From Thioalbus denitrificans (GTDB lineage Bacteria > Pseudomonadota > Gammaproteobacteria > DSM-26407): DNA of 64,000 nt. Position 1 is the stretch's first letter. Each line of letters begins with the position of its first letter. The notes under the pieces are model-generated. The model was not told the DNA's origin. It worked only from the letters and a program-made list of their open reading frames with translations, and ran no database searches. The stretch covers positions 18,265 through 82,264 of the forward strand of contig NZ_QPJY01000005.1 of the NCBI RefSeq assembly GCF_003337735.1, given 5' to 3'. Made by a program: the position numbers and the translations under genes. Of this stretch, positions 12,115 through 42,742 are shown one piece after another.

Positions 12115-12115
12115 G

Positions 12116-13417: not shown

Positions 13418-13484
13418 GGGGTTTGCTGATCTCTCCGGGTGTCCGGCGGGAGATTCAGCAAGAACCGGACCAGCGCCGCGGGGG

Positions 13485-14876: not shown

Positions 14877-15412
14877 GCCGTCTCCCCCAGCAGGACCCCG
14901 GCCAGCTCCTCGAAGCGGGTGACCACGCGGGTGTGCTCGAACCCGGCCAGGCGCCCGGTGTTCTCCAGGTCGATGCGCCGCGGGTAGACCGGGACGGTGC
15001 CGCCCGGCGCCTCGGTCTCCATCGCCGGCTCGCTGTCGCAGGCGAACACGACGCTCGGCACGCGGCACTTGCCCGCCTGGGCGTAGATGTTGGTGACCAG
15101 GGTGTCGGAGATGCCCTGCACCATCTTGGCCACGGTGTTGGAGGTGGCCGGGGCGATGACCAGCCGGTCGTAGACGCCCTTGTAGAACAGCCCCACCGGC
15201 GCGGCGCTGGCGGTGGTGTCGCGGAATACCCGCAGCCGCGACTGCAGCGACTTCACCGGGATGCCGTACATGTGCAGCACCTCCGCGGCGGCGCGGGTGA
15301 GGAAGAGATCCACCGCCGGCAGCCGCTCCGCCAGCTCCAGGCACTCGCGCAGGTAGTGGCCGGAGCCGGTCAGGCCCCAGGCGATGCGCGGCGTGCGGGG
15401 CGGTGCGGTCAC
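14852..15412 (-). CDS. AfpA/DmrB-type flavoprotein (dihydromethanopterin reductase candidate)
   Basis: The 186-residue Rossmann-like flavoprotein belongs to the archaeoflavoprotein AfpA family: WGLTGSGHYL near the N terminus, PATSNTVAKM in the FMN-site region, and a Cys-containing middle (AGKCRVPSVVFACDSE). Relatives reduce dihydromethanopterin to H4MPT or act as small electron carriers. No DmrA is visible in the window, so this may be the reductase that completes cofactor synthesis. The start is GTG at 15412, overlapping the PTPS stop. Confidence 0.82.
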   Translation of the reverse strand: MTAPPRTPRIAWGLTGSGHYLRECLELAERLPAVDLFLTRAAAEVLHMYGIPVKSLQSRLRVFRDTTASAAPVGLFYKGVYDRLVIAPATSNTVAKMVQGISDTLVTNIYAQAGKCRVPSVVFACDSEPAMETEAPGGTVPVYPRRIDLENTGRLAGFEHTRVVTRFEELAGVLLGETACPDTSCS

Positions 15413-15912
15413 GGCGCCACCTCGCGCCGGCACACGCCCCACTGCCGGTCGGCCTCCTCCACGGCCACCTCCAGGGTCTCCAGCCCCCGGTTGCTGCCCG
15501 CCTCGCGCAGGGCCCGGATCAGCTCGCCGCCGATGTGCCAGGCCAGCATCTCGGCGGTGGCGTTGCTCACCGGCAGCACCCGGCAGCTGTCGGCGGGCAG
15601 CACGAAGCGGCGGCCGTGGCTCTCCACCCGCAGGGCGTCCCCCTCGGGGGTGATCGCCACCTCGCGGCTCTCGCCGGGCAGCAGCACCCGGTCGTGGAGG
15701 GTGCGGCAGATGGCCGCCGCCAGGCGGGTGAGCTCCACGAAGTCGAGGACGAAGGCGTCCCCGGTGTTGCGGCCCACGGCCTCCACGCGGACGTGGAAGT
15801 TGTGGCCGTGCAGGTTCTCGCAGGTGCCGCCGAAGGTGATGAAGTGGGCGGCGTTGAAGTGCAGCTCGCCGGGATCGACGCGCACGGCGAAACGTTCGGG
15901 GTTCGGGCTCAA
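15409..15912 (-). CDS. 6-pyruvoyltetrahydropterin synthase (PTPS/QueD) family protein
   Basis: The 167-residue PTPS-fold protein keeps the zinc ligands in AAHF and LHGHNF and a Cys in GGTCENLHGH. It should act on dihydroneopterin triphosphate or a derivative early in pterin synthesis. First gene of the left operon. I choose TTG at 15912 because GGAGGA lies 7 bases upstream. The longer frame from the TTG at 15957 is excluded because that triplet is part of the sigma-54 -12 element. Confidence 0.82.
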   Translation of the reverse strand: MSPNPERFAVRVDPGELHFNAAHFITFGGTCENLHGHNFHVRVEAVGRNTGDAFVLDFVELTRLAAAICRTLHDRVLLPGESREVAITPEGDALRVESHGRRFVLPADSCRVLPVSNATAEMLAWHIGGELIRALREAGSNRGLETLEVAVEEADRQWGVCRREVAP

Positions 15913-15952
15913 CGGTCTCCTCCGCTGCCGGGATGATCTCTCCGGGGAGGAG

Positions 15953-15968
15953 AGCAAAAGACGTGCCG
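15953..15968 (-). promoter_or_regulatory. Sigma-54 promoter of the left H4MPT operon
   Basis: On the minus strand the sequence reads CGGCACG-TCTT-TTGCT, which matches YTGGCACG-N4-TTGCW at all but the first T and has exact GG-N10-GC spacing. The expected start site near 15942 gives a leader of about 30 nt ending in GGAGGA before the TTG start of the PTPS gene. Confidence 0.75.
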
Positions 15969-16009: not shown

Positions 16010-17962
16010 CTAGCGCGGCGGCCGGATGCCGTAGCGCTTCATCTTGCGGTAGAGGGTGTTGCGGCTGAGGTTGAGCCGCGCCGCGACGCGGGTGACGTTC
16101 CAGTGCAGGGCCTCCATCTCGCGCAGGATGGCGTCGCGCTCGGCGGCGGCCAGGGCGTTCTCCGGCTGCTGCCCGGACCCGTCCCCGGCGGCGGCCAGCG
16201 GCAGCTCCAGCAGCTCGTCGGGCAGATCGTGCACGGTGATGTTGTCGCTCTCCGCCAGCCCCACCACCGTGCGCATGACGTTGCGCAGCTGGCGGATGTT
16301 GCCGGGCCAGGCGTAGGCGTCGAGCCGGGCCAGCGCCTCGGTGTCGAAGTGCAGCTCCCGCCCCCCGGACTCGGCCCGGGCGAGGGCCTCGATGAGGGCG
16401 CGGCGGTCGCCGCGCTCCCGCAGCGGCGGCAGGGTGAGGGTGATGCCGTGCAGGCGGTAGTAGAGATCCTGGCGGAAGCGTCCCTCGGCCACCTGCTGCT
16501 TCAGGTCCCGGTGGGTGGCGCTGATGAGGCGGATGTCCACCGCCACGGCGGTCTCGCCGCCCAGCGGGAACACCTCCCGCTCCTCCAGCACCCGCAGCAG
16601 GCGCGCCTGCAGGTGCAGGGGCATGTCGCCGATCTCGTCCAGGAACAGGGTGCCGCCGTCGGCCTGCAGGATCTTGCCGCGGCTGCCCTCGCGGCTGGCG
16701 CCGGTGAAGGCGCCGGGGCGGTAGCCGAACAGCTCGCTCTCGATGAGCGTCTCCGGCAGCGAGGCGCAGTTGACCGCCACGAACGGCTTGTGGCCGCGGC
16801 GCCCGGCCTGGTGCACGGCCTTGGCGAACATGTCCTTGCCGGTGCCCGTCTCGCCCATCAACAGCAGCGGGATGTCCCGGTCGCTGAGGCGGCGCGCGCG
16901 CTCGATGTTGCGGCGCATGCGCGCGTCCCCGAACTCCAGCGCGGCCAGGGGGTCGCCCGGCTCGTCGGTCACCGCCGCCACCGCCGGGGCCGCGCGGCGG
17001 CCGCGGGCGGCCGCCGCGAAGGGGGCCGGGGCCTGGTTCTCGGGCGGCTGGAACACGGCGAAGTAGCGCCGCCCGCCGCGGGCCTCGCGGATGGGCAGGG
17101 GCTGGAAGGTGTGGTGCTCGGCCCGCTGCAGCGCCTGGGGCAGGGAGAGGTTGAACACCTCCTGCAGGGGGCGGCCGACGATGTCCGCCTGGGAGACCAG
17201 GTCGAGCTGGAACAGGGCGCTGCGGTTGGCGGCGAGGATGCGCCCGTCGGGCTCGAAGGCGATGGCGCCCTCGCCCAGGGTGCTGACGAACTCGGGGCGG
17301 CTGTGGAAGCGGGCGATGTAGCTGGACTTCATGGCGCACAGGAAGACCCGGTTCTCGATCATCTGCGCCGACATGTTCACCAGCACCATGGTGTGCTGCT
17401 GGGCCAGGCTCGATTCGCTGGAAGCGTCGAGCACCGCCAGCATCTCGCCGTGGGGATCGAAGATGGGGGCGGCGGAGCAGGTCAGCCCGGTGTGGTGGGC
17501 GAGGAAGTGCTCGCGGTGGTGGATCACCAGCGGGCGCTGCTCCACCAGGCAGGTGCCCATGCCGTTGGTGCCCTGGGCCGCCTCGCTCCAGACCGCGCCC
17601 GCGTGCATGCCGCTGCGGGCCGCCGCCTCGGTGAACAGCGGGTCGCCGACGAAGTTGAGCACCACGCCGTCGCGGTCGGTGAGCAGGATGGCGTAGCCGG
17701 AGCCCGCCACCTGCTGGTAGAGGCTGGTCATCTCCGTGCGGGCGATGTCGAGCAGCCGGTCGCAGCGCTCCTGGCGCTGCAGCAGCTCGCCCCGCTCCAG
17801 CACCACCGGCTCGCGGCGGTCCGCCGGGTGCAGGCCGTGATCCTCCACGCAGCGCCGCCAGGACTGGGTGATATGGTTCTCGGGGACTTCCAGGCCCCGG
17901 GTGTTGCCGCGGACCACGGCCTGCACCAGGCGGGCGTGGTTGGCGATATCCGGATAGTGCAT
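16010..17962 (-). CDS. Sigma-54-dependent AcoR-type transcriptional activator
   Basis: The 650-residue enhancer-binding protein has a GAF sensor domain (about 50-205), a PAS-like domain (about 218-300), an AAA+ domain (about 335-565) and a C-terminal Fis-type helix-turn-helix (about 605-645). The AAA+ domain has Walker A GETGTGKD, the sigma-54 contact loop GAFTGA and Walker B GGTLFLDEIGD; the last domain contains NVTRVAARLNLSRNTLYRKM. The architecture is that of AcoR and related activators of alcohol and aldehyde catabolism, where the GAF domain binds a small molecule. It lies between the left H4MPT operon and the formate dehydrogenase genes. Every sigma-54-like promoter nearby is a plausible target. 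Confidence 0.92.
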   Translation of the reverse strand: MHYPDIANHARLVQAVVRGNTRGLEVPENHITQSWRRCVEDHGLHPADRREPVVLERGELLQRQERCDRLLDIARTEMTSLYQQVAGSGYAILLTDRDGVVLNFVGDPLFTEAAARSGMHAGAVWSEAAQGTNGMGTCLVEQRPLVIHHREHFLAHHTGLTCSAAPIFDPHGEMLAVLDASSESSLAQQHTMVLVNMSAQMIENRVFLCAMKSSYIARFHSRPEFVSTLGEGAIAFEPDGRILAANRSALFQLDLVSQADIVGRPLQEVFNLSLPQALQRAEHHTFQPLPIREARGGRRYFAVFQPPENQAPAPFAAAARGRRAAPAVAAVTDEPGDPLAALEFGDARMRRNIERARRLSDRDIPLLLMGETGTGKDMFAKAVHQAGRRGHKPFVAVNCASLPETLIESELFGYRPGAFTGASREGSRGKILQADGGTLFLDEIGDMPLHLQARLLRVLEEREVFPLGGETAVAVDIRLISATHRDLKQQVAEGRFRQDLYYRLHGITLTLPPLRERGDRRALIEALARAESGGRELHFDTEALARLDAYAWPGNIRQLRNVMRTVVGLAESDNITVHDLPDELLELPLAAAGDGSGQQPENALAAAERDAILREMEALHWNVTRVAARLNLSRNTLYRKMKRYGIRPPR

Positions 17963-17996: not shown

Positions 17997-18011
17997 GCAA
18001 GAAGCGTGCCT
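17997..18011 (-). promoter_or_regulatory. Sigma-54 promoter of the activator gene
   Basis: The minus strand reads AGGCACG-CTTC-TTGC with exact GG-N10-GC spacing, one base from the -24 consensus. The start site would fall about 25 nt before the ATG at 17962, leaving room for the AGGAGG site. This implies autoactivation. Confidence 0.6.
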
Positions 18012-18153: not shown

Positions 18154-18177
18154 CACTGTCACGGAAACGTGACAGTG
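18154..18177. promoter_or_regulatory. Perfect palindrome, candidate activator-binding site
   Basis: CACTGTCACG (18154-18163) and CGTGACAGTG (18168-18177) are exact inverted arms around GAAA. It lies about 165 bp upstream of the activator gene's -12 element and 2 bp beyond the formate dehydrogenase alpha stop. The 12-mer ACACTGTCACGG found here recurs exactly (inverted) at 42608-42619 between the divergent fhcD and beta-RFAP synthase promoters. The core TGTCACG occurs twice between the mtoX and SCO promoters. It could also be a transcription-end hairpin of the fdh operon, but there is no T-run. Confidence 0.6.
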
Positions 18178-18179: not shown

Positions 18180-20942
18180 TCACCCGTCCGGGTGAGCGTT
18201 CGGGCCCGGCGCGGGCTCCACCCGCACGGCGCAGAACTTGAATTCCGGGATCTTCGCCACCGGGTCGAGAAAGTCGTGGGTGAGCAGGTTGGCGGCCGCC
18301 TCGTGGTAGCAGAAGGGCAGGAACACCTGGCCCGGCGACAGGCCGCGGTCGGCGCGGGCGAAGGCGGTCACCGCGCCGCGCCGGGAGCGCAGGGTCACGG
18401 CCTCACCCGGGCGCAGGCCGAGCCGCTCCAGCTCCTCCGGGTGCAGGCTCGCCACCGGGAAGGGCTCGATGGCGTCGAGCACCGTGGCGCGGCGGGTCAT
18501 GGCGCCCGTGTGCCAGTGCTCCAGCTGGCGGCCGGTGATGAGCACCCAGGGGTAGTCGCCGTCGGGCAGCTCGGCGGCGTTGCGCAGGGGCGCGGGCACC
18601 AGCCTGGCGCGGCCGCCGGGGCGGGGGAACTCCTCCGTGAAGATGACCGGCTGGCCCGGATCGGCCTCGCTGGGGCAGGGGTAGGTGACGGCGTCCTCCC
18701 GCTCCAGGCGCTCCCAGGAGATGCCGGCGATGCTCGGCATGGCCCGGCGCAGCTCGGCGAAGACGCTGGCCGGCCCGTCGTAGTTCCAGTCCAGCCCCAG
18801 GCGCCGCGCCATCTCCTGGACGATCCAGAGGTCCTGGCGCGCCGCGCCCGGCGGGTCGAGGGCGGCCCGTCCCAGCTGCACCCGGCGGTCGGTGTTGGTG
18901 AAGGTGCCGCTCTTCTCCGGGAAGGCGGAGGCGGGCAGGATGACGTCGGCGTACCAGGCCGTCTCGGTCATGAAGATCTCCTGCACCACCAGGTGCTCCA
19001 GCCCGGCGAGCGCGGCGCGGGCGTGGGCCAGGTCCGGGTCGGACATGGCCGGGTTCTCGCCCATGACGTACATGCCGCGAATCTCGCCGGCCTTGGCCGC
19101 GTGCATGATCTCCACCACGGTGAGCCCCGGCTCGGGATCGAGGGCGGTGCCCCACAGGGCCTCGAAGCGCGCCCGCGCCTCCGGGTTGTCCACCCGCTGG
19201 TAGTCGGGGAAGACCATGGGGATGAGCCCCACGTCGGAGGCGCCCTGCACGTTGTTCTGGCCGCGCAGGGGATGCAGGCCCGTGCCCGGCCGGCCGATCT
19301 GGCCGCTGATGAGGGCGAGCGAGATGAGGGCGCGGGAGTTGTCGGTGCCGTGCACGTGCTGGGACACCCCCATGCCCCAGAAGATGATGGCGTTGGGGGC
19401 CGAGGCGTAGACCCGCGCCACCTCGCGGATGGTGTCGGCGTCGATGCCGCACACCGGGGCCATGGCCTCCGGCGTGAACGCGGCAAGGTGTGCCTTGAGC
19501 GCCGCGTACTCCTCGGTGCGCTCGCGCACGAACGCCTCGTCCACCAGTCCCTGTTCGATGACGGCCTGCATCAGGGCGTTGAGCAGGGCCACGTCGCTGT
19601 CGGGCCGGAACTGCAGGAAATGGCGGGCATGGCGGGCGATGGCCGTGCGCCGCGGGTCCATGACGATGAGGGTCTTGCCCGCCCGGGCCGCGTTCTTGAT
19701 GAAGGTGGCCGCCACCGGGTGGTTGTCGGTGGTGTTGGAGCCGATGATGACGATGACGTCCGCCTCGGCCACGTCCGCCACCGGGTTGGAGACGGCGCCG
19801 GAGCCGATCATCTCCAGCAGCGCCGCCACCGAGGAGGCGTGGCACAGGCGCGTGCAGTGGTCCACGTTGTTGCTGCCGAAGCCCGTGCGCACCAGCTTCT
19901 GGAACAGGTAGGCCTCCTCGTTGGAGCCCTTGGCGGAGCCGAAGCCGGCCAGGGCCTTGGGGCCGTGCCGGTCGCGGATGGCCTTGAGGCCGCCGGCGGC
20001 GAACGCCAGCGCCTCCTCCCAGCCCGCCTCGCGGAAGTCGCGGAACGGGTCGTCGTGATCGAGCCCGAGCTCCGGCGTCCTGGGCGCGTCGGCGCGGCGA
20101 ATCAGCGGCTTCGTCAGGCGGTGGCGGTGGTGGACGTAGTCGAAGCCGTAGCGCCCCTTCACGCACAGCCGCCCGTGGTTGGCGGGGCCGTCGCGGCCGG
20201 TGACCTGGAGGATGCGGTTGTCCTTCACGTGGTAGGTGAGCTGGCAGCCCACGCCGCAGTAGGGGCAGACCGAGTCCACGGAGCGGTCGGGCGCCTCCAG
20301 GGCCACGCCGCCGGCGGGCGCCAGGGCGCCGGTGGGACAGGCCTGGACGCACTCGCCGCAGCCCACGCAACTGCTCGTACCCATGGGATCGCCCAGGTCG
20401 AAGACGATGTGGGCCTGGCTGCCGCGGGCGGCGTAGCCGATGACGTCGTTGGCCTGGGTCTCGCGGCAGGCGCGCAGGCAGCGGGTGCACTGGATGCAGG
20501 CGTCCAGGCGCACGGCGATGGCCGGGTGGGAGGCGTCCGCCGCCACGTCGGGGCGGGCCGGGAAGCGCGGCGGGCCCAGCTCCAGCTTCCGGCGCCACTG
20601 GTCCAGCTCGTTGTGCAGGGTGTAGGGCGCTTCGGGCATGTCGGAGGCCAGCAGCTCCAGCACCAGGCGCTGGGCGCGGCGGGCGCGCCCGGTGGCGCTG
20701 TGGACCACCATGCCCTCGGTGGGGGCGCGGCAGCAGGAGGGGGCCAGCACCCGCTCGCCCTCGATCTCCACCACGCAGGCGCGGCAGTTGCCGTCGGCGC
20801 GCAGGCCGTCCTGGTGGCAGAGGTGGGGAATCTCCACCCCGTGGCGGCGGGCCGCCTGCAGCAGGGTCTCGCCCGGCAGCGCCTCCAGGGTTCGGCCGTC
20901 GAGGGTGAAGCTCACGGGGGCGGTCGCGGGGAGCGCGGACAT
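18180..20942 (-). CDS. fdh1A: NAD-type formate dehydrogenase alpha subunit (Mo/W)
   Basis: The 920-residue subunit oxidises formate to CO2 at a molybdo- or tungsto-pterin site. In order it has an N-terminal NuoG-like [2Fe-2S] domain (Cys in HLCHQDGLRADGNCRAC), a His/Cys [4Fe-4S] region, and two ferredoxin-like clusters (CIQCTRCLRAC and CVGCGECVQACPTGA). A pterin domain follows, starting CPYCGVGC, with catalytic Cys in CTRLCHASS, and a C-terminal MopB_CT domain. It is a Cys, not Sec, enzyme. Its two-subunit partner arrangement resembles FDH1 of Methylobacterium. It overlaps the beta gene as TGATG. It completes the C1 route to CO2 and yields NADH. Confidence 0.93.
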   Translation of the reverse strand: MSALPATAPVSFTLDGRTLEALPGETLLQAARRHGVEIPHLCHQDGLRADGNCRACVVEIEGERVLAPSCCRAPTEGMVVHSATGRARRAQRLVLELLASDMPEAPYTLHNELDQWRRKLELGPPRFPARPDVAADASHPAIAVRLDACIQCTRCLRACRETQANDVIGYAARGSQAHIVFDLGDPMGTSSCVGCGECVQACPTGALAPAGGVALEAPDRSVDSVCPYCGVGCQLTYHVKDNRILQVTGRDGPANHGRLCVKGRYGFDYVHHRHRLTKPLIRRADAPRTPELGLDHDDPFRDFREAGWEEALAFAAGGLKAIRDRHGPKALAGFGSAKGSNEEAYLFQKLVRTGFGSNNVDHCTRLCHASSVAALLEMIGSGAVSNPVADVAEADVIVIIGSNTTDNHPVAATFIKNAARAGKTLIVMDPRRTAIARHARHFLQFRPDSDVALLNALMQAVIEQGLVDEAFVRERTEEYAALKAHLAAFTPEAMAPVCGIDADTIREVARVYASAPNAIIFWGMGVSQHVHGTDNSRALISLALISGQIGRPGTGLHPLRGQNNVQGASDVGLIPMVFPDYQRVDNPEARARFEALWGTALDPEPGLTVVEIMHAAKAGEIRGMYVMGENPAMSDPDLAHARAALAGLEHLVVQEIFMTETAWYADVILPASAFPEKSGTFTNTDRRVQLGRAALDPPGAARQDLWIVQEMARRLGLDWNYDGPASVFAELRRAMPSIAGISWERLEREDAVTYPCPSEADPGQPVIFTEEFPRPGGRARLVPAPLRNAAELPDGDYPWVLITGRQLEHWHTGAMTRRATVLDAIEPFPVASLHPEELERLGLRPGEAVTLRSRRGAVTAFARADRGLSPGQVFLPFCYHEAAANLLTHDFLDPVAKIPEFKFCAVRVEPAPGPNAHPDG

Positions 20943-22618
20943 CACTCGATCTCCTCGGGGAAGTGTCGCAGCACGCTGCGCAGCGGGTTGGGGGCGGCCT
21001 GGCCCAGGCCGCAGATGGAGGCGTCGCTCATCACCGCGGCGAGCTCCTCCAGCAGGGCGCGGTCCCACACCGGCGCCTCCATGAGGGCGGCGGCCTTGGC
21101 GGTGCCCACCCGGCACGGCGTGCACTTGCCGCAGGACTCGTGGGCGAAGAAGCGCATGGCGTTGAGGGCCGCGGCGCGGGCGCCGTCGTGCTGGGAGAGC
21201 ACGATGATCGCGGCCGAGCCGATGAAGCAGCCGTGCTCCTCCAGGGTGCCGAAATCGAGGGGCAGGTCGGCCATGGCGGCGGGCAGGATGCCGCCCGAGG
21301 CGCCGCCCGGGAACCAGGCGTGGAGCGCGTGGCCCTCCGCCATGCCGCCGCAGTGCTCGTCGATGAGCTCGCGCAGGGTGATGCCGGCCGGCGCCAGGTG
21401 CACGCCGGGGTTGCGCACCCGGCCGCTCACCGAGAAGCTGCGCAGCCCGCTGCGGCCGTGGCGCCCCTGGCCCGCGAACCACTCCGCGCCGCGCTCGAGG
21501 ATGTCACGCACCCAGTACAGTGTCTCCAGGTTGTGCTCCAGGGTGGGGCGCCCGAACAGGCCTGTTTCCGCGATGTAGGGCGGGCGCAGGCGGGGCATGC
21601 CGCGGCGACCCTCGATGGACTCGATCATGGCCGACTCCTCGCCGCAGATGTAGGCGCCGGCGCCGCGGCGCAGGTGCAGCTCGGGGAGGGGGCAGGGCGG
21701 GTCGGCCCGCAGCCGCTCCAGCTCCCGGGCGAGCAGGGCGCGGCAGCCGGCGTATTCGTCGCGCAGGTAGATGTAGACCGCCTCCGCCTCCACCGCCCGC
21801 GCGGCCACCAGCAGCCCCTCCAGGAAGCGGTGGGGGTCGCGCTCCAGGTAGTGGCGGTCCTTGAAGGTGCCGGGCTCGCCCTCGTCGATGTTCACCGCCA
21901 TCAGCCGCGGGCCCGGGTAGCCGCGCACGATGCGCCACTTGCGCCCGGCGGGGAAGCCGGCGCCGCCGAGGCCCCGCAGGCGGGCGTCCTCCAGGGTGGC
22001 GATGACCGCTTCCACCGCGAGCCCGCCGCTCTCCAGCTGCGCCGGCAGCCGGTAGCCGCCGCCGGCGCGGTAGGCGTCGTAGTCGATGGCCGCGGGCAGC
22101 GGCGCCCGGGTGGCGCCGTTCGCCACCGCCTGCGCCACCGTCCCGGGCGTGGCGCGGGGCACCGGGTTGTGTCCCACCACCGCCACGGGCGCCTCCGCGC
22201 AGCGGCCCACGCAGGGCACCGCCTGCACCCGCACGCCCGCGCCGAGGGCCGACTTCAGCGCTGCCAGCAGCTCGCCGGCGCCGGCCAGCTCGCAGCTCAC
22301 CGAGTCGCACACCCGCACCGTCAGCGGCGGCGGGGGCGTTTCGCCGTCCCGCACCAGGTCGAAGTGGTGGTAGAAGCTCGCCACCTCGTAGACCTCGGCG
22401 GCGGCGAGGCTCAGCTCCTCGGCCAGCGCGGTGAGGTGGGCCGTGGAGAGATGGCCGTGGGCGTCCTGGATGCGGTGCAGGTGCTCGATGAGCAGGTCGC
22501 GGCGGCGGGGGGCGTCGCCCAGCAGGGCGCGCACCTCGCGCAGGGCCCGGGGCTCTGCGGTGCGGCCGCGCGGACGTCCGCGGGCCCGGCGGGGCCGGTC
22601 CGGTGTGGCGCTGGTCAA
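20942..22618 (-). CDS. fdh1B: Formate dehydrogenase beta subunit (NuoE-NuoF fusion)
   Basis: The 558-residue protein fuses a NuoE-like [2Fe-2S] thioredoxin-fold domain (about 25-165; Cys in CDSVSCELAG and CVGRCAEAP) to a NuoF-like domain (about 200-555). The latter has the FMN/NADH loop GLGGAGFPAGRKW, EGEPGTFKDR and the [4Fe-4S] motif ESCGKCTPCR. It passes electrons from the alpha subunit to NAD+. A basic N-terminal tail (about 1-20) precedes the domains. The start is TTG at 22618, 8 bases after GAGGAGAG. The gene lies between SCO and fdh1A, probably in one transcript. Confidence 0.92.
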   Translation of the reverse strand: MTSATPDRPRRARGRPRGRTAEPRALREVRALLGDAPRRRDLLIEHLHRIQDAHGHLSTAHLTALAEELSLAAAEVYEVASFYHHFDLVRDGETPPPPLTVRVCDSVSCELAGAGELLAALKSALGAGVRVQAVPCVGRCAEAPVAVVGHNPVPRATPGTVAQAVANGATRAPLPAAIDYDAYRAGGGYRLPAQLESGGLAVEAVIATLEDARLRGLGGAGFPAGRKWRIVRGYPGPRLMAVNIDEGEPGTFKDRHYLERDPHRFLEGLLVAARAVEAEAVYIYLRDEYAGCRALLARELERLRADPPCPLPELHLRRGAGAYICGEESAMIESIEGRRGMPRLRPPYIAETGLFGRPTLEHNLETLYWVRDILERGAEWFAGQGRHGRSGLRSFSVSGRVRNPGVHLAPAGITLRELIDEHCGGMAEGHALHAWFPGGASGGILPAAMADLPLDFGTLEEHGCFIGSAAIIVLSQHDGARAAALNAMRFFAHESCGKCTPCRVGTAKAAALMEAPVWDRALLEELAAVMSDASICGLGQAAPNPLRSVLRHFPEEIE

Positions 22619-22688: not shown

Positions 22689-23267
22689 TCAGCGGTGGGC
22701 GGCGGCCGGGGCGTCGGCGCGCCGCAGGAGGGTGCGCACCGTCTCGGCGATGGTCTCCGGCGGGATGCCGTAGGGCAGCTTGCGCACCAGCCGGCCGTCG
22801 GTGTCGATCACGTAGAGATCGGCGCTGTGGTCCACCGGGTAGAAGCCGCTGGCCTCGCGGGGACCGAAGCTGTAGCGCACGCGGTACTGGTCGGCGACGG
22901 CGCGGATCGCGTCCGGGCTGCCGGTGAGCGCGGTGATGCGGGGGTCGAACCAGCCCACGTAGTTGCGCAGCACCGCCGGGGTGTCCCGCTCCGGGTCGAC
23001 GCTCACGAACAGGGGCTGCACCCGGTCGGCCAGTTCCCCGAGGCGGTGCAGGGCGGCGGTCACCTCGCCCAGGGTGGTCAGGCAGATGTCCGGGCAGTGG
23101 GTGTAGCCGAAGAACAGCAGCACCACCTGGCCGCGCGCCTGCTCCAGGCTGAAGGGGGCGCCGTCGTGGTCGGTGAGGGTGAAGTCACCGCCGAGGCGCG
23201 CCTGGGCGGGTGTGCCGAGGGCGAACAGCAGCGCGAACAGCGCCGGCCAGGGGCTGAGGTGTCTCAT
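22689..23267 (-). CDS. SCO1/SenC family copper chaperone or thiol reductase
   Basis: The 192-residue secreted protein has a signal peptide (about 1-23) and a Sco thioredoxin fold with copper site CPDIC in FFGYTHCPDIC and a distal His in VDHSADLYVID. It is first in the SCO-fdh1B-fdh1A transcript and divergent from mtoX. In mtoX clusters a SCO protein is thought to help copper loading of the oxidase. A second SCO domain lies in the fusion downstream of mtoX and a third in the oxidase operon. Confidence 0.88.
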   Translation of the reverse strand: MRHLSPWPALFALLFALGTPAQARLGGDFTLTDHDGAPFSLEQARGQVVLLFFGYTHCPDICLTTLGEVTAALHRLGELADRVQPLFVSVDPERDTPAVLRNYVGWFDPRITALTGSPDAIRAVADQYRVRYSFGPREASGFYPVDHSADLYVIDTDGRLVRKLPYGIPPETIAETVRTLLRRADAPAAAHR

Positions 23268-23343: not shown

Positions 23344-23359
23344 TGCAGGATGCATACCA
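23344..23359 (-). promoter_or_regulatory. Sigma-54-like promoter of the SCO-fdh operon
   Basis: The minus strand reads TGGTATG-CATC-CTGCA. The invariant GG-N10-GC is kept, with two mismatches in the -24 block and one in the -12 block. The leader to the SCO start is about 65 nt. It mirrors the mtoX promoter around the shared half-sites, which supports it. Confidence 0.5.
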
Positions 23360-23410
23360 GCCGCCCGCGCCCGGATTCTTCCCGCCGCGCCCGGCGCAGG
23401 AGCCCGCGGG

Positions 23411-23463
23411 GTGTCACGCTTTCCGGGCACTCGCGCGGCCAGTCTGTTGCCGTGGTGTCACGC
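23411..23463. promoter_or_regulatory. Two direct GTGTCACGC sites between divergent promoters
   Basis: GTGTCACGC occurs at 23411-23419 and again at 23455-23463, 44 bp apart. The outer edges are each about 52 bp from the -24 element of the promoter on that side, so the arrangement is symmetric. Their core TGTCACG equals one arm of the palindrome upstream of the sigma-54 activator gene. They fit upstream activating sequences shared by mtoX and SCO-fdh. The rest of 23268-23656 shows no other gene. Confidence 0.55.
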
Positions 23464-23514
23464 CGGGCACCGCCCGGCGGGCGGTGGCCATTGTCCTATG
23501 AGGTTGCAGGGGTA

Positions 23515-23530
23515 TTGGCACCGAAATTGC
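23515..23530 (+). promoter_or_regulatory. Sigma-54 promoter of mtoX
   Basis: TTGGCAC-CGAAA-TTGC has the full -24 hexamer, the -12 TTGC and exact GG-N10-GC spacing. The start site would be near 23541, giving a leader of about 115 nt to the mtoX ATG. Confidence 0.75.
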
Positions 23531-23656: not shown

Positions 23657-25039
23657 ATGAACAAGCACAAGATGACAGTGACGCAGAAGTTCCGACGCAC
23701 CGCGGCCACCGCCGCGCTGGGCATGGCCGCGCTGGCCGTGGGCATGGTGCCGGTGACGGGCCAGGCCGACGAGACCTGCATGTCGCCCTACATGGCCAAG
23801 ATCGTGGGCCAGGAGGACTACGTCTACGTCTGGACCCTGGGCGTGGAAGGTGTCGGCGACGGCCAGGACAAGCTGGTGACCGTGGACGTGAACCCCAACT
23901 CCAAGACCTACGGCCAGGTGGTGAACACCCTGTCGGTGGGCGGGCGCAACGAGGCCCACCACTCCGGCTTCACCGATGACCGCATGTACCTCTGGGCCGG
24001 TGGCCTGGACACCAACAAGGTGTTCATCTTCGACGTCCACTCCGATCCCCGCCAGCCGAAGCTCTCCAAGGTGATCACCGACTTCGTCTCCAAGAGCGGC
24101 GGCGTGGTCGGCCCCCACACCACCTACGCCCTGCCGGGCCGCATGATGATCACCGGCCTGTCCAACAACAAGGACCACGGCGGGCGCACCGCGCTGGTGG
24201 AGTACACCAACGAGGGCGAGTACGTCGCCACCTACTGGATGCCCACCGACGACAGCCTGCAGGGCGCGAAGAAGACCGGCAACTACGCCGACGGCTACGG
24301 CTACGACGTGCGCGTGCTGCCGCGGCGCAACTCCATGTTCACCTCCGCCTTCACCGGCTGGTCCAACTACATGATGGACTTCGGCAAGATGCTGAACGAC
24401 CCGGAGGCGATGAAGCGCTTCGGCAACACCGTGGTGCGCTGGGACCTGCACCAGCGCAAGCCCAAGGAGGTGTTCGACGTGCCCGGCGCGCCGCTGGAGA
24501 TCCGCTGCGCCTGGCAGCCGAACCACAACTACTGCTTCACCACCACGGCCCTGACCTCCAAGATCTGGCTCATCCACGAGGATGACCAGGGCCAGTGGCG
24601 CGCGGACGAAGTGGCCGACGTGGGCGATCCCTCCAAGGTGCCCCTGCCGGTGGACATCTCCATCAGCAGCGACGACAGCATGCTGTGGGTCAACACCTTC
24701 ATGGACGGCAAGACCCGCGGCTTCGACATCACCGACCCCTTCCACCCGAAGCAGGTGCACGAGGAGAAGATCGGCGCCCAGGTGAACATGGTCTCCTCCA
24801 GCTGGGACGGCAAGCGCCTCTACTACACCAGCTCGCTGCTGGCCAACTGGGACAAGAAGGGCGCGGACAACGAGCAGTACCTCAAGCTCTACGAGTGGGA
24901 CGGCAAGAACCTCGCCAAGAAGTTCGAGATCGACTTCATGAAGGAGAATCTCGGCCGCGCCCACCAGATGCGCTTCGGCGCCTACAGCCTGTACGCCAGG
25001 AAGCCCGGGGAGGGCAGCCGGGTCGCCCAGGGCGACTGA
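23657..25039 (+). CDS. mtoX: Methanethiol oxidase (SBP56 family)
   Basis: The 460-residue SBP56/selenium-binding-protein family member has an N-terminal export signal (about 1-37, containing FRRTAATAALG), as in bacterial periplasmic MtoX. It shows family motifs ETCMSPYMAK, EAHHSGFTDD, GPHTTYALPGR and the C-terminal GRAHQMRFG. The His residues are candidate copper ligands. MtoX oxidises methanethiol with O2 to formaldehyde, H2S and H2O2. Downstream is a SCO-MauG fusion and TlpA, upstream divergent is SCO-fdh; this SCO/MauG company is the known hallmark of true MtoX loci. Start at 23657 follows GAGGTGGAG. A strong hairpin follows the stop. Confidence 0.93.
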   Translation: MNKHKMTVTQKFRRTAATAALGMAALAVGMVPVTGQADETCMSPYMAKIVGQEDYVYVWTLGVEGVGDGQDKLVTVDVNPNSKTYGQVVNTLSVGGRNEAHHSGFTDDRMYLWAGGLDTNKVFIFDVHSDPRQPKLSKVITDFVSKSGGVVGPHTTYALPGRMMITGLSNNKDHGGRTALVEYTNEGEYVATYWMPTDDSLQGAKKTGNYADGYGYDVRVLPRRNSMFTSAFTGWSNYMMDFGKMLNDPEAMKRFGNTVVRWDLHQRKPKEVFDVPGAPLEIRCAWQPNHNYCFTTTALTSKIWLIHEDDQGQWRADEVADVGDPSKVPLPVDISISSDDSMLWVNTFMDGKTRGFDITDPFHPKQVHEEKIGAQVNMVSSSWDGKRLYYTSSLLANWDKKGADNEQYLKLYEWDGKNLAKKFEIDFMKENLGRAHQMRFGAYSLYARKPGEGSRVAQGD

Positions 25040-25194: not shown

Positions 25195-27168
<1,974 letters not shown>

Positions 27169-27724
27169 AGCCGGGCGCGGCCTGCTGCTGGGCCTGCTGC
27201 TGGCCGCCGCCGGCACGCTGCCGGCGGCGGCCGGGGAGGGGCTGCAGCCGGTGGCCGGCACGCCGCCCGCCGCCCCCCTGGAGCTGCCGGACCTGGCGGG
27301 CCATACCGTGCGCCTGGCGGACCTGCGGGGGCGCTGGGTGCTGGTGAACTTCTGGGCCGCCTGGTGCGCCCCCTGCCGCAAGGAGATGCCCTCCATGGAG
27401 CGGGCCTGGCGCACCCTCCGGCCCGAGGGGCTGGAACTGCTGGCGGTGCACGCCGGCCCCAGCGCCGCCGCGGCGCAGAAGTTTCTCGAGCAGGTGCCGG
27501 TGGGCTTCACCGTGGTGATGGACGAGGCGCTGGCGGTCTCCGGCTGGGACATCCCGGGGCTGCCGGTCACCTACCTGGTGGACCCGCAGGGCCGCCAGGT
27601 GGCGGTGGCCGTGGGCGACCGCGAGTGGGACAGCCCGGCGATGATCGCGCGCCTGCGCGAGCTGATGGGGACGGAGGGCGGCTGAGGCCCTCCGCCCGTC
27701 CCCCGCCGGCGATCCGATCCGGAC

Positions 27725-28432
27725 TCAGCGCGCCTGCGCGTTCCCGGCCGCGGCGCGCGCGATCGCCTGGATGTCCGTGGCCATGAGCCGCGGGTCGTGG
27801 GGCGCGCCGAACACGGCCGCGTACTCCCCGCGGGGGTTGATGAGCAGGATCGCCGCGGAGTGATCCACGAGGTAGCCCATGGCGCTGTCGGGCGCCTCCA
27901 CCTTCTCGTAGCGGATGCCGAGCTGCCGGGCGAGCCCGGCCAGCTCCGCGGGGGTGCCCGTGGCGCCGATGAAGCTGGGGTGGAAATAGGGCACGTAGCC
28001 GGCGAGCCGCGCCGTGGTGTCGCGCTCCGGGTCCACCGAGACGAACACCGTCCGGTAGGGGGTGTCCGCATCCTCGGCCGTGAGCAGGTGCCGCACCCGG
28101 GCCAGGTTGGCGAGCGCGGTCGGGCAGATGTCCGGGCAGGAGGTGTAGCCGAAGGCGAGCAGGCTCCAGCGGCCCCGGAGCGAGGCCTCGGTGAAGGGCG
28201 CGCCGTTGTGCGCGGTCAGGGTGAAGGGTTCGACCCGCCGCGGGCCGGGCAGCAGCGTGGCCTGGGCGAGCGCCGGCTGCAGGTGCGGGGTTGCCGGCGC
28301 CTCGCGGCCGCCCCGCAGGCCGTCCAGGGCGAGGGTGAGCCCGAAGGCCAGCACCGGCAGCAGCGTGGCCAGGAGCCACAGGTGAATGCGGGGCCGGACC
28401 GGTCCCGCGGTGTCCGTTTGCATCTTCCTCAT
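27725..28432 (-). CDS. SCO1/SenC family copper chaperone of the oxidase operon
   Basis: The 235-residue protein has an N-terminal membrane anchor (about 16-37) and a Sco domain with CPDIC in FGYTSCPDIC and a distal His in YLVDHSAAILLI. It should deliver copper to the CuA site of the subunit II in the same operon. It is the distal gene, after the Cu-ATPase. An operon of oxidase subunits plus SenC is the arrangement reported for norSY-senC in ammonia oxidisers. Confidence 0.87.
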   Translation of the reverse strand: MRKMQTDTAGPVRPRIHLWLLATLLPVLAFGLTLALDGLRGGREAPATPHLQPALAQATLLPGPRRVEPFTLTAHNGAPFTEASLRGRWSLLAFGYTSCPDICPTALANLARVRHLLTAEDADTPYRTVFVSVDPERDTTARLAGYVPYFHPSFIGATGTPAELAGLARQLGIRYEKVEAPDSAMGYLVDHSAAILLINPRGEYAAVFGAPHDPRLMATDIQAIARAAAGNAQAR

Positions 28433-28489
28433 ACTCGACTCTCTCCTCTGCTGTGCCGGGGTGCGTGGTCCCCGTGCCGTCCCGATAAG

Positions 28490-30943
28490 CTAGGGCTGTC
28501 CGGCCCAGCCCCGGGCGGACGGGGCGGGTGCCTGCCCCGCGTCCGGCGGCGCCGCCGTCGCATCCGCCGGAAGGTCGGCGACGCCGATGAGCGGGCGCGA
28601 TGAGTTCCAGACCACCAGCAGGCTGCTGGTGGCCATGGCCAGGGCGGCGAACAGGGGATTGAGCACGCCGGTCACCGCCAGCGGAATCGCCACGGCGTTG
28701 TAGAGCAGGGCCCAGCCGATGTTCTGCCGGACCCGGCGCCGGGTGGTGCGGATCAGCTCGAAGGCGGTGAAGACCCGCTCCAGGCGGTCGCCGGGAATGA
28801 CGATGTCCGCCGCCTCCGCCGCGAGCGGGGTGGGGGTGCCGAAGGCGATGCCGAGGTCGGCGGCGGCCAGCGCCGGCGCGTCGTTGCTGCCGTCGCCGAC
28901 CATGACCACCCGGCCTTCCGCGCGGAGCTGCCGGATGACGGCCGCCTTCGCCTCCGGCGGGATGCCGGCGTGGAAGGCGTCCGCCCGCTCCTCGTACCCG
29001 CTCGGATGCTCCGCGCCCGTGAGCAGGATCACGCGTCCGTTCTCCCGCAGCCGGTCGATGACGGCCTCCCACTCCGGGCGCTGGCGGTCCCGGGTGACGA
29101 TGGCGCCCCGGGCGCGGCCCTCCCAGCCCACGTAGGAGATCACCCCCTCGCCCGGCAGGCGGGCGGCGGCCGCGGCGGCGAGGCGGGCGGGAATCTCCCA
29201 GCCGAGGGTGGCGTACAGCGCCCGGCCGCCCACCACCACCCGCCGCCCCTCCACCGAGGCCTCGGCACCCTTGCCGGGGTGGAGCCGGAGGTCGGTGGCG
29301 GCCAGGCTGGCGTCCAGCCCGGCGATGGCCGCCGCGATGGGGTGGCTGGAAAGGCGTTCCACGGCGGCGGCGCGGGCGGCCACCACCGGTGGTCCCAGGA
29401 CCTCCACCACGGACATCCTGCCGGTGGAGAGGGTGCCGGTCTTGTCCAGGGCGAAGATGTCGAACCGCGGCGGCTTGGCGAAGGTGTCGGCGCTGGTCAC
29501 GAGGATGCCGTGGCGCAGGGCCGCGCCGACGGCGGTGGCGGTGGTGAGGGGCACCGCCAGGCCGAAGGTGCAGGGACAGGAGACAATCAGCGTCGCCAGG
29601 CCGGCCAGCAGCGCCGCGCCCGGCTGCGCCCCCTCCAGCAGCAGCCAGCCGGAGACCAGCGCGGCCAGTGCGAGCACCGCCGGTACGAAGACCCGCGCGA
29701 TGCGATCGGCGAACCCCCGCACCCCCGCGGTCGAGCCCTGGACGCTCCAGAGCACCCGGGCCAGGTTCTCGACCTGGCTGGAGACCGCCGCGCCCACCTC
29801 GATCTCCAGTCCGCCCTCCACCAGCCGCGTTCCGCCGAGGACGGCCTCGCCCGGCCCCCGGGCCGCGGGAAACGGCTCGCCGGTCATCAGGGACTCGTCC
29901 ACCGCGCCCTGTCCCAGCACGACGCGGCCGTCCACCGGCACCGGCTCCCCGGCGCGGATGAGGACCCGGTCGCCGGGGCGCAGTTCGCCGAGGGGGAGGC
30001 TCCGGAGCCCGCCGTCCCGCCGGGTGCGGGCGGCCGGCGCCCAGGCCTCGGTGAGCCGGGCCAGCTCGCGGGTGGCGTCCGCCTTCGCGCCCTGCTCGAA
30101 GTAGCGGCCGGTGGTCACCACCGCCACGATCACGGCGGCCACGTCGAAATAGAGATCCAGCGAGCCGGTGAAGAGCCGGGCGGCGCTGTAGCCATAGGCG
30201 GCCAGGATGGCGATCGCCAGCAGGTTGTCCATGTTGAGCACCCGCGCCCGGAACCCGATCCAGGCGCCGCGCAGGATCGGCGCCCCCACCAGGAAGACCA
30301 GCAGCGTGGTGAGCACCAGCATGGCCCGCGGCGCGGCGGTGAAGGCGAGCCAGCCCACCGGCTCCAGGTCCCCCGGCGCCACGAGGCCGAGGTGGGTGGG
30401 GTAGAAGAACGCGAGGTAGAGCATCATCACCGTGGCCGCCAGCGCCGCCCCGGTGATGACCCGCAGCAGGGAGCGCGAGTCGTCGCTCTCCGCGGCGGGC
30501 CCCCCGGTGCGCAGGCTGGCCCGGTAGCCGGCGCGGCCGATCGCCCGGGGCAGGTCCGCCTCCCGGATGCGCCCGGGATCGTAGACGACCCGGGCGGTGG
30601 AGGTGGCGTAGCTCGAGCTGACCGAGTGGATGCCCTCGATGCCCGCCGCGCAGCGCTCGATCAGGATTTCGCAGGAGGAGCAGTGCATTCCCTCGATGCG
30701 GAGGAACGCCTCGGCGCCCTGGGGCGGCGGCGATGCGGCGTTGGCCGCGGGCCGCGCCGCCGCCGCGAGAATTGCGCTGCCGAAGGTGCGGAACACCGTG
30801 CTGCAGCCGTGGCAGCAGAAGCCGCGGCCGCCGTCCATGACGGGTGGCGCGGGAGTGGGCGCGCCGCACAGCGCGCAGCCCGCGGCGTCCGGCGCGCGGC
30901 CGTCCCGCGCCGGCGTGGCCGGGTCAGAGGGGGATGCAGACAT
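28490..30943 (-). CDS. Copper-type P1B ATPase (CcoI/FixI-like)
   Basis: The 817-residue ATPase has an N-terminal metal-binding segment (CALCGAP and CCHGC), a heavy-metal domain with MHCSSC, about eight membrane segments, the CPC motif (SCPCTFGLA), DKTGT phosphorylation site, HP segment and GDGSNDAP. The CCHGC head is typical of FixI/CcoI pumps that supply copper for heme-copper oxidase assembly rather than detoxification. It overlaps the end of ctaB by 20 bp and precedes SCO, so all act in maturation of the enzyme encoded upstream. N-terminal ATG at 30943. Confidence 0.9.
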   Translation of the reverse strand: MSASPSDPATPARDGRAPDAAGCALCGAPTPAPPVMDGGRGFCCHGCSTVFRTFGSAILAAAARPAANAASPPPQGAEAFLRIEGMHCSSCEILIERCAAGIEGIHSVSSSYATSTARVVYDPGRIREADLPRAIGRAGYRASLRTGGPAAESDDSRSLLRVITGAALAATVMMLYLAFFYPTHLGLVAPGDLEPVGWLAFTAAPRAMLVLTTLLVFLVGAPILRGAWIGFRARVLNMDNLLAIAILAAYGYSAARLFTGSLDLYFDVAAVIVAVVTTGRYFEQGAKADATRELARLTEAWAPAARTRRDGGLRSLPLGELRPGDRVLIRAGEPVPVDGRVVLGQGAVDESLMTGEPFPAARGPGEAVLGGTRLVEGGLEIEVGAAVSSQVENLARVLWSVQGSTAGVRGFADRIARVFVPAVLALAALVSGWLLLEGAQPGAALLAGLATLIVSCPCTFGLAVPLTTATAVGAALRHGILVTSADTFAKPPRFDIFALDKTGTLSTGRMSVVEVLGPPVVAARAAAVERLSSHPIAAAIAGLDASLAATDLRLHPGKGAEASVEGRRVVVGGRALYATLGWEIPARLAAAAAARLPGEGVISYVGWEGRARGAIVTRDRQRPEWEAVIDRLRENGRVILLTGAEHPSGYEERADAFHAGIPPEAKAAVIRQLRAEGRVVMVGDGSNDAPALAAADLGIAFGTPTPLAAEAADIVIPGDRLERVFTAFELIRTTRRRVRQNIGWALLYNAVAIPLAVTGVLNPLFAALAMATSSLLVVWNSSRPLIGVADLPADATAAPPDAGQAPAPSARGWAGQP

Positions 30944-31781
30944 CGAGCACCGTTCCGGCCAGCAGCAGGCTGAGCTGGGCGAGGGAGGCGAAGAAGCTCC
31001 TCATCGCGCACTTCGGCGAGGTGTCGCGCAGCAGCAGCAGGTTGCGGTGGATGAAATAGCCCCCGCCCGCCACGGCGCCGGCCAGGTAGATCCAGCCGAG
31101 CCCGTAGAAGAACGGCAGGATGGAGACGGCGACGAGGATCACCGTGTTGGCGAGGACCGCCCGGGCGGCGGTCCGGTTGCCGGCCACCACGGGCAGCATC
31201 GGAATGCCGGCCGCCGCGTAGTCCTGCCGCTGGGCGATGGCGAGGCTCCAGAAATGGGACGGGGTCCAGAAGAACAGGACCAGCGCCAGCTGCAGGGGCA
31301 CCGGCCCGATGGCGGGGTCGACGGCCGCGGCGCCGGCCAGCACGGCGAAGCTGCCGGAGGCGCCGCCGATGACGATGTTCAGCCAGGTGCGCCGCTTCAG
31401 CCACACCGTGTAGACCACGGCGTAGAAAAAGGCGCCGAGGAAGATGTGGAGGGCCGCCTGGGCGTTGAGCACGACGACCGCCACCGCCACGCTCGCCGCC
31501 AGCATGCCGGTGATCACCAGCAGCCAGGCGGCGCTCTTGTGGAAGGCGCCGGTCACGAAGGGCCGGTTGCGCGTGCGCTTCATGCGCGCATCCAGGTCGG
31601 TTTCGTAGTACTGGTTGAATGCGCCCGCGCTGGCGGCGGCCACCAGGACCGTGAGGGCCAGGATGGCGGTCTCCCACGCCGTCATCTGCCGGCCGGGGGT
31701 CGCCAGCATGGCGACCACCGCGGTCAGGGTCATGATGATGCCGATGCGCAGCTTGAACAGGTTGCCGAGTTGTCTGACCAT
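30924..31781 (-). CDS. ctaB: Protoheme IX farnesyltransferase, CtaB
   Basis: The 285-residue UbiA-family membrane enzyme carries the prenyl-diphosphate site NQYYETDLDARMKRTRNRP. It adds a farnesyl group to heme b, giving heme O for heme-copper oxidases. I take ATG 31781, which begins MVRQLGNLFKLRIG like other CtaB proteins. A longer form from 31904 adds about 40 residues that look unlike the family. It lies between oxidase subunit I and the Cu-ATPase. Confidence 0.88.
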   Translation of the reverse strand: MVRQLGNLFKLRIGIIMTLTAVVAMLATPGRQMTAWETAILALTVLVAAASAGAFNQYYETDLDARMKRTRNRPFVTGAFHKSAAWLLVITGMLAASVAVAVVVLNAQAALHIFLGAFFYAVVYTVWLKRRTWLNIVIGGASGSFAVLAGAAAVDPAIGPVPLQLALVLFFWTPSHFWSLAIAQRQDYAAAGIPMLPVVAGNRTAARAVLANTVILVAVSILPFFYGLGWIYLAGAVAGGGYFIHRNLLLLRDTSPKCAMRSFFASLAQLSLLLAGTVLDVCIPL

Positions 31782-31919
31782 GCCGCCTGGAACCTCCGCC
31801 TGGACCGATACCGCACTGCACCGGGTGGTGCGTACCCACTGCCTCCGGTCGCGGAGCGGGGCGGCCGGCACGGCCGCCCCGCTCGTTGCCCGGTTGAAGA
31901 GCATCAGCTGCCCGGTCCC

Positions 31920-33455
31920 TCAGGTCGCCGTTTCCGCGGCGAGATCCCCGAGGGGCGAGATCTCCCGGGCCCGCTGCAGGTTGACGAGGTAGACCACGAA
32001 GGCCGTGCTGAGGATGAGGCCGAAGATCAGGATCGCCACCCCGTAGCCCATCCAGCCGCCCTGGGCCCAGTCGGCGAAGCGACGCGGCATCCCCGCCGCG
32101 CCCCCGGCCTGGAAGGTGTAGAGCAGCCCCATGGCGCCGATGCTGTAGAGGGCGACGAAGCGGTTGCCCAGGGTGCGGTCGAGGCGGCGACCGGTGATTA
32201 CCGGGTAGTGGTGGTAGAAGACGCCCATCCACATCAGCGCCATGGCCGTCAGCACCGACATGGTGTGGCCGCTGACGGACATGGTCGCGTGCAGCTGGGC
32301 GTTCACCGCCACGTTGGCGATGACCATCGCGGTGACGCCGTCGAAGATGTAGATGACGAAGCCCATCAGGATCGCCATCAGCCCGGGCTCGGCCCGGATG
32401 CCGTGTTTCCAGATGGTGGCGAGGATGGTGAAGATGGAGAACGCCGCGCCGATGCCGGTGCCCCAGCTCATGATGTTGCCGTGGTAGGCCAGCGCCGAGG
32501 GCAGGGCGGGAAACATGTTGTAGAAGTGGTGGAAGAAGGAGGTGACGGAGGTGACCAGCAGGATCCACAGCGCCACGTTGGCCAGCTTGTCGCTGTAGAG
32601 CTTGCGGGTGCCGTCGGCGAGGTAGAGCGGGAGGGTGGCGTACACGGCGCTGATGACCATGATCGCCATCGCCTCCATGAGGTTGTGGGCGAAGATGTAG
32701 AAGGCGAACTGGAACACCACCGGCTCCGCGGCCCAGGCGATGGCCGACATGGGCAGGATCCCGTACAGGCCGAGCAGGATGGTGCCGGCGATGATCATCA
32801 GCGGCGTGCCGGTGATCAGCAGCACCAGGGCCGCCATGATCATGCCCACCATCCCCGGGTCCTTGATGGTGCGCCGGGAGAGCACCAGCTCCTCGTGCTC
32901 CCTGGAGAAGAAGGTCATGCGCAGGAGCTGCAGCGGGTAGAGGAAGATCACCGAGGTCAGGACCAGGGCGATGCCGGTGAAGCCGAGCACCACCAGCCCC
33001 ATGCTCCACTGTCCCGTCTGCACGCCGACGATGGGCAGGGGATACATCACCGCGTAGCTGATCTTGAGCCCGGAGAAGACGGCGGCGGTGAGCAGCAGCC
33101 CGCCGATGTTCATGCAGTAGTAGATCAGCGCCGGAAGTTTTCCCGAGGCCTTCTTTCCGAGGCAGCCGCCGGCCCGGTGCAGGCTCACGCCCACCATGAG
33201 CTGGAAGGTGAAGGGAAACGCCAGGGCCGCGCCGTGGGCGGTGATGGCGGTGTAGAAGACATTGGTGTTCAGCCCGAGCAGTTGGGCCACGGGCATCAGG
33301 ATCCCCAGCAGCGCGGCGGCGATCAGCCACACGAAGGAGGTCATGACCATCAGGCTCGGCCAGGCGTTGATGTCCTCGAGCCCGGTGCTCCTGTCGACGT
33401 TGAACATCCTGCCGAACAGCGGGGTGTTCTGGACGATTGCGGTTGCGTTCAACAT
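31920..33455 (-). CDS. Heme-copper oxidase subunit I, sNOR-like (NO reductase candidate)
   Basis: The 511-residue protein has about 12 membrane helices and heme-copper ligands: His74 (TAITAHG), His257, His309/His310 (FFHH), His389 and His397 (SVSGHTM). The helix VI motif is HNLME, so His257 is followed at +4 by Glu261. Oxidases have Tyr there (HPEVY), cross-linked to the copper-B His. NO reductases have Glu (HLWVE in NorB), which helps bind the non-heme iron. This fits the sNOR type, in which a CuA-bearing subunit II accompanies a NOR-like subunit I. An atypical terminal oxidase remains possible. Confidence 0.72.
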   Translation of the reverse strand: MLNATAIVQNTPLFGRMFNVDRSTGLEDINAWPSLMVMTSFVWLIAAALLGILMPVAQLLGLNTNVFYTAITAHGAALAFPFTFQLMVGVSLHRAGGCLGKKASGKLPALIYYCMNIGGLLLTAAVFSGLKISYAVMYPLPIVGVQTGQWSMGLVVLGFTGIALVLTSVIFLYPLQLLRMTFFSREHEELVLSRRTIKDPGMVGMIMAALVLLITGTPLMIIAGTILLGLYGILPMSAIAWAAEPVVFQFAFYIFAHNLMEAMAIMVISAVYATLPLYLADGTRKLYSDKLANVALWILLVTSVTSFFHHFYNMFPALPSALAYHGNIMSWGTGIGAAFSIFTILATIWKHGIRAEPGLMAILMGFVIYIFDGVTAMVIANVAVNAQLHATMSVSGHTMSVLTAMALMWMGVFYHHYPVITGRRLDRTLGNRFVALYSIGAMGLLYTFQAGGAAGMPRRFADWAQGGWMGYGVAILIFGLILSTAFVVYLVNLQRAREISPLGDLAAETAT

Positions 33456-33485
33456 TTTCTCTATCCTCGCTTTTCGGAAGCCCTG

Positions 33486-42457: not shown

Positions 42458-42517
42458 GGCGCTCCTCTTCGGCTCCGGGGCGGCCGGCGGTATGCCGGCG
42501 CGGTGTCTTCTCCCGAT

Positions 42518-42533
42518 AGCAGGGTCCGTGCCA
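42518..42533 (-). promoter_or_regulatory. Sigma-54 promoter of the fhcDC operon
   Basis: The minus strand reads TGGCACG-GACC-CTGCT: complete -24, one mismatch in -12 and exact GG-N10-GC. Predicted start near 42507, leader about 50 nt. Confidence 0.7.
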
Positions 42534-42587
42534 GCGCCGCCGGGGCCATGGAACCGGGCGGATGGGGGCCGGACCGGGACGGTGGCG

Positions 42588-42619: not shown

Positions 42620-42689
42620 GCCCCAGCCCGGTGGCAGCGGTGCGCCGCACGGGGCCGGGGCGGCGTGGTGAATCCCGGGCTTGCGGCGG

Positions 42690-42705: not shown

Positions 42706-42742
42706 GATGGTGGGCGGCATGGACAGCGGAGCGCATACAGAG

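Follow-up and report, generated by a model that had tools for sequence, protein, structure and literature searches.

Activators of the AcoR/DhaR type (GAF-AAA+-HTH_8) act on acetoin or dihydroxyacetone targets. BmoR, an alcohol-responsive sigma-54 protein that activates an alkane/alcohol oxidation enzyme, works from an inverted-repeat upstream site (PMC8899819). Methanethiol oxidase genes (mtoX) cluster with SCO1 and MauG genes in Hyphomicrobium and Ruegeria pomeroyi; in Ruegeria, an IclR-family regulator gene precedes mtoX, whose transcription methanethiol enhances (PMC5739008). The formaldehyde regulators FlhRS, FrmR, and AdhR, of two-component, CsoR/RcnR, and MerR type, respectively, control formaldehyde-producing and -consuming enzymes (PMC8879981). 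Our literature search found nothing linking sigma-54 to methanethiol oxidase and, mostly from titles and abstracts, no sigma-54 control of the H4MPT pathway; papers naming sigma-54 together with H4MPT or Fae are few, and one of them, PMC12403871, puts RpoN at nitrogen genes.

We analyzed a 64,000-nucleotide stretch of Thioalbus denitrificans DNA (the window; Table 1), in which SCO1, a NuoEF-like fdhB, fdhA, and an activator gene follow one another on the minus strand, divergent from mtoX. The activator shares domain order, GAFTGA motif, and Fis-type HTH with AcoR/DhaR proteins but stands among genes for methanethiol, H4MPT-linked, and formate oxidation. Whereas BmoR serves one monooxygenase promoter from a distant UAS (193 bp) (PMC8899819), here a shared predicted UAS would serve divergent promoters and several operons. 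Predicted sigma-54 promoters and an AcoR-like activator stand here in contrast to the IclR-family gene of Ruegeria, and none of the formaldehyde regulators above is of the sigma-54 kind. The enhancer mechanism itself is well known and of an ordinary kind, but the regulon, a methanethiol/H4MPT/formate set under sigma-54, is apparently previously undescribed. If true, it would supply a circuit by which this group controls transcription for methanethiol oxidation, with a named activator and operator, and a candidate for how sulfur-gas-oxidizing bacteria avert formaldehyde build-up, with entry and removal enzymes co-induced.

Table 1. Genes, predicted sigma-54 boxes (matches to TGGCACG-N4-TTGC), and candidate operator elements of the window
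Feature	Position	Strand	Evidence or remark
PTPS, dihydromethanopterin-reductase-like, DHPS-like, fhcB, fhcA	10480-15957	-	NCBIfam
Box facing PTPS...fhcB-fhcA	15954-15968	-	10/11; after activator stop
AcoR-like sigma-54 activator gene	16010-17962	-	Pfam GAF-PAS-AAA+-HTH_8
Box before activator gene	17997-18011	-	10/11
Perfect candidate operator CACTGTCACG-GAAA-CGTGACAGTG	18154-18177		upstream of activator gene
fdhA, NAD-type formate dehydrogenase alpha	18180-20942	-	TIGR01591 above cut-off
fdhB-like fusion (NuoE/NuoF-like)	20942-22618	-	Pfam
SCO1/SenC copper chaperone	22689-23267	-	Pfam
SCO1-fdhB-fdhA -24/-12 box CTGGTATGCATCCTGC	23345-23360	-	8/11
GTGTCACGC copy 1	23411-23419	+	inside candidate dyad 23412-23429
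Candidate activator operator, imperfect TGTCAC-N6-GTGACA-type dyad TGTCACGCTTTCCGGGCA	23412-23429	+	contains copy 1
GTGTCACGC copy 2	23455-23463	+	no dyad partner
mtoX -24/-12 box TTGGCACCGAAATTGC	23515-23530	+	10/11
mtoX methanethiol oxidase	23657-25039	+	NF052453 equivalog, 780.6 bits (cut-off 650)
SCO-MauG fusion, thioredoxin-like gene	25195-27685	+	Pfam
fhcC, fhcD (-); RFAP synthase, mtdB-like, ATP-grasp, mch, ATP-grasp, citG-like, fae (+)	40740-49089	- and +	NCBIfam, Pfam
Box for fhcD-fhcC	42519-42533	-	10/11; counterparts L162, L144
Half-site CACTGTCACG (CGTGACAGTG on +)	42609-42618	-	between fhcD and RFAP-synthase boxes
Box for RFAP synthase-mtdB-mch-fae operon	42691-42705	+	10/11; counterparts L144, L145, L147, L162

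The sequence-only reading had proposed divergent sigma-54 promoters with a common half-site between mtoX and SCO-fdh. Both GG-N10-GC boxes, in the TGGCACG/TTGC context (the SCO1 box reaching 9/11 in the sister species), and both GTGTCACGC copies are in place, and rpoN occurs once in the genome (one Sigma54_AID match, 9.4e-17). Alignment of the region in relatives, run as a refutation test, found the boxes and one TGTCACG copy conserved and left the proposal unrefuted. The sequences and their conservation are directly observed; that the promoters are active, we infer. On these grounds the intergenic DNA is a real, evolutionarily conserved candidate sigma-54 promoter pair with predicted activator half-sites between.

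The gaps from the GTGTCACGC copies to the -24 boxes measure 50 and 51 bp, so that the earlier figure of about 52 bp to each box was correct. The symmetry and the paired copies hold in the window and are lost in the sister species (L004), whose MtoX is 92% identical. There, both boxes are kept, as TTGGCATTGAAATTGC before mtoX and as CTGGTACGCATCCTGC, nearer consensus (TGGTACG), before SCO1, and copy 1 with ~27 bases 3' of it is unchanged and again lies 104 bp from the mtoX box. Copy 2 reads GTGCCACGC, and 40 nt are inserted between operator and SCO1 box; therefore the symmetry is not conserved, and one operator is. The predicted functional element between mtoX and SCO1 is thus the dyad around copy 1, not two symmetric copies, and copy 2 is probably an auxiliary half-site at most.

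The mtoX dyad of the window deviates at 3 of 12 positions. Further TGTCAC dyads precede mtoX in five other loci: L060, and L015, L064, L196, and L203, with the imperfect TGTCAC-N6-GTGACA forms TGTCACTCGGACGATACA, TGTCACTGTATTGGAACA, TGTCACTGCCGCGGCACA, and TGTCTCTTAATCGTGACA, respectively. Among 11 independent orthologous regulatory regions, none used in defining the motif, TGTCAC/GTGACA was the most widespread hexamer (9 regions; mean 1.2 and maximum 4 in shuffles), and the best hexamer of any kind in shuffles reached at most 8 regions. A dyad-symmetric candidate UAS lies upstream of the box both at mtoX, where it is imperfect, and at the activator gene, where it is perfect: an inverted repeat with 10-bp arms between the fdhA stop and the activator gene, ~140 bp upstream of the activator box, whose core TGTCACG-N4-CGTGACA occurs exactly only once in the 4.14-Mb genome. 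In the sister species its arms are unchanged and the spacer bases differ, and the activator box is kept. Searching for this core with up to 3 mismatches was uninformative (69 matches vs 125 in the reversed control). TGTCAC-N6-GTGACA with 3 mismatches showed no enrichment over other spacings in whole loci, so we limited the operator analysis to sites beside boxes. A literature search for the TyrR-box string, intended for comparing geometry, returned nothing.

Kept arms around a changed loop, and the position of the perfect copy just after the fdhA stop codon, would also suit an RNA hairpin or transcription end in place of an operator. No T-run follows the perfect copy, however, and although the copies at mtoX and fhcD amount only to half-sites or weak dyads, similar offsets from the box recur in several genomes (~81-129 bp before mtoX), which makes hairpins very improbable.

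A second predicted divergent sigma-54 pair, between fhcD and RFAP synthase, has a half-site in common with the first: a 10-mer identical to the arms of the activator operator, kept in the sister species (L139) along with identical fhcD and RFAP-synthase boxes. GTGACA also lies between the two in the loci of this type L144, L145, L147, and L162; the fhcD box itself occurs in only 6 of 16 cases in activator-bearing genomes. At the PTPS operon, 12 of 24 orthologous loci, the window's included, have an equivalent box no more than ~220 bp from the activator stop. TGTCAC in the activator 3' end of some relatives was considered as the operator here; it may be Val-Thr codons of the conserved HTH, and so no PTPS-promoter operator is claimed.

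Boxes of this kind are common, with ~19 sites of at least 9/11 expected per shuffled window, and could be chance matches in a G+C-rich genome where sigma-70 promoters do the work. At the stricter level of at least 10/11, the window has five against 1.6 expected from dinucleotide shuffles (one shuffle also gave five). All five precede C1 genes in the right orientation, facing the PTPS operon, the activator, mtoX, fhcD, and RFAP synthase-mtdB-mch-fae, and this is a stronger argument than their number. Placement and orientation are moreover conserved in the sister species and across divergent genera, and 47 of the 48 regions upstream of mtoX in activator-lacking genomes have no box; a chance origin is therefore, in our estimate, slighter still in probability than hairpins. 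Across the 4.14-Mb genome, the composite TGTCAC-N74..104-box matched only at mtoX and fhcD, and GTGACA-N50..80-box only at SCO1, RFAP synthase, and a single further site (reversed patterns: 1 and 0 matches), with gap ranges picked after the sites had been seen. The remaining match, on C14 (L211), falls among overlapping ORFs, and its context is not clear.

We collected 80 mtoX loci for comparison and later added two (L196 and L203) from the class sample. SCO1 is divergent from mtoX in seven of the 80 (L004, L015, L018, L035, L060, L062, and L064), and each of these but L035 has a box of at least 9/11 before mtoX. Boxes of 9-10/11 precede mtoX in seven gammaproteobacterial loci besides the window and its sister (L015, L018, L060, L062, L064, L196, and L203), most with divergent SCO1; L196 and L203 combine 10/11 boxes with TGTCAC. 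The SCO1-facing boxes score 9-10/11 in L015, L060, L064, and L196 and 8/11 in L018 and L062. A distance of 181-182 bp separates the two boxes of L015, L060, and L064, where the TGTCAC dyad starts 83 bp before the mtoX box. In the L203 genome SCO1 is not divergent, yet mtoX has a box and GTGACA-TA-TGTCAC. What is conserved opposite mtoX is SCO1: fdhBA lies 3' of it in the window, the sister species, L018, L226, and L064 (partial contig) and is not adjacent to it in L015, L060, L062, and L035. G281, from another family of the class, repeats the arrangements fdhA-fdhB-SCO1 | mtoX, fhcC-fhcD | RFAP synthase-mtdB-mch-fae, and activator-PTPS; boxes stand at every one of these positions, and the proteins are 54-86% identical. 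Three mtoX homologues (L188 in G350, L189 in G251, and L200 in G202) have one stop codon within the match.

The activator carries an AAA+ sigma-54 interaction domain (PF00158, 1.3e-66; GAFTGA at 417) and a Fis-type HTH (PF02954, 4.2e-11). Its nearest curated models, DhaR and PrdR, are both far under their cut-offs; at 311.8 bits against the 551 needed for the DhaR equivalog, it is AcoR/DhaR-like only. Orthologues with 52-98% identity occur in all eight genomes with divergent SCO1/mtoX. Activator co-occurrence is directly observed, and the identity of the binding protein we infer. With the promoters still sigma-54 dependent, some other enhancer-binding protein or regulator might bind TGTCAC, leaving the neighbouring activator to serve no operon but its own or that of PTPS: there are many sigma-54-activator-like candidates per genome (32 at first look in G000), other sigma-54 activators occur in the window's genome, and TGTCAC was not found in L018 and L062, although boxes and activator are present. 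But the genome's best operator stands before this activator gene, the activator is in every divergent-locus genome with its recognition helix SRNT-YR invariant among orthologues, and no second G000 protein matches it at E<=1e-100, so that another binder is unlikely and the earlier suggestion of this protein as the probable binder gains support.

A mtoX box of at least 9/11 was present in 9 of 18 loci from activator-bearing genomes vs 1 of 48 from activator-lacking ones (Fisher p 1.1e-5, relatedness ignored). Four activator-bearing genomes (G023, G024, G025, and G027) had no such box at the mtoX examined; mtoX is therefore not a target everywhere. The activator occurs in 13 of 369 sampled genomes of the class. 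Twelve of these 13 have fhcD, against 49 of 369 overall (hypergeometric p 1e-10), and seven have mtoX, against 32 of 369 (p 2e-5; relatedness ignored in both); thus the firm partner of the activator is the H4MPT pathway. Among the six activator genomes without mtoX, a PQQ methanol/alcohol dehydrogenase is above cut-off in four (G120, G156, G243, and G367) and fragmentary in G346, and G392 has neither this enzyme nor fhcD. Conversely, none is above cut-off in the window's genome or in several divergent-mtoX genomes. Inspected as a follow-up prediction, the PQQ-dehydrogenase genes of activator genomes are preceded by same-strand boxes of at least 9/11 in 9 of 14 cases (L212-L215, L217, and L222-L225), with a TGTCAC dyad ~190-520 bp further upstream in L212-L215 and L217; several xoxF genes bear the same signals. 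Such a pattern suggests that methanethiol and methanol oxidation share a signal, formaldehyde for example. We tentatively suggest, at somewhat less than even confidence, that the activator is a dedicated sigma-54 sensor of formaldehyde (or an H4MPT-bound C1 unit) controlling H4MPT-linked oxidation in some Gammaproteobacteria, among which the entry enzyme would be exchangeable: mtoX in the absence of methanol dehydrogenase, otherwise xoxF/PQQ-dehydrogenase.

The region between SCO1 and mtoX thus appears to be one of several control points for a single AcoR-type activator of the methanethiol-to-CO2 chain. The sequence-only reading had coupled the first and last oxidation steps; the boxes do face mtoX and SCO1-fdh, and because the same signals precede fhcD and RFAP synthase-mtdB-mch-fae, the predicted coupling spans the whole C1 pathway. 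We consider it probable, from the sequence evidence, that a shared enhancer, two divergent sigma-54 promoters, and one AcoR-like activator drive the whole C1 route. The activator would be expressed from a sigma-54 promoter of its own, next to the best operator in the genome; it would sense a C1 signal through its GAF/PAS part and assemble into the AAA+ form; its dimer would bind the TGTCAC-N6-GTGACA-type dyad before mtoX, and the assembled form would open sigma-54 RNA polymerase at the two divergent promoters, those of mtoX and of SCO1-fdhBA. This protein would also drive fhcD-fhcC and RFAP synthase-mtdB-mch-fae, and probably PTPS...fhcBA. One activator at all these promoters would thus make a single switch for the route from methanethiol through formaldehyde, H4MPT-bound C1, and formate to CO2.

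A paralogous AcoR-like activator (~45% identity; L093, L109, L110, and L111) occurs in G004, G023, G024, and G027, within several kb of a second PQQ alcohol dehydrogenase gene, which is preceded by sigma-54 boxes in G023 and G027, the two checked. In G027, two TGTCAC-N6-GTGACA dyads with 1 mismatch each lie 31 bp apart (L115, 6584-6632), ~1.9 kb upstream of a second activator copy. In the window, SCO2 and P-type ATPase-like and heme-copper oxidase-like ORFs (27725-34055; family search covering SCO2 alone) follow the mtoX operon on the opposite strand. A PAS-PAS-histidine kinase gene (39168-40733) adjoins fhcC and may encode another sensor belonging to this cluster.
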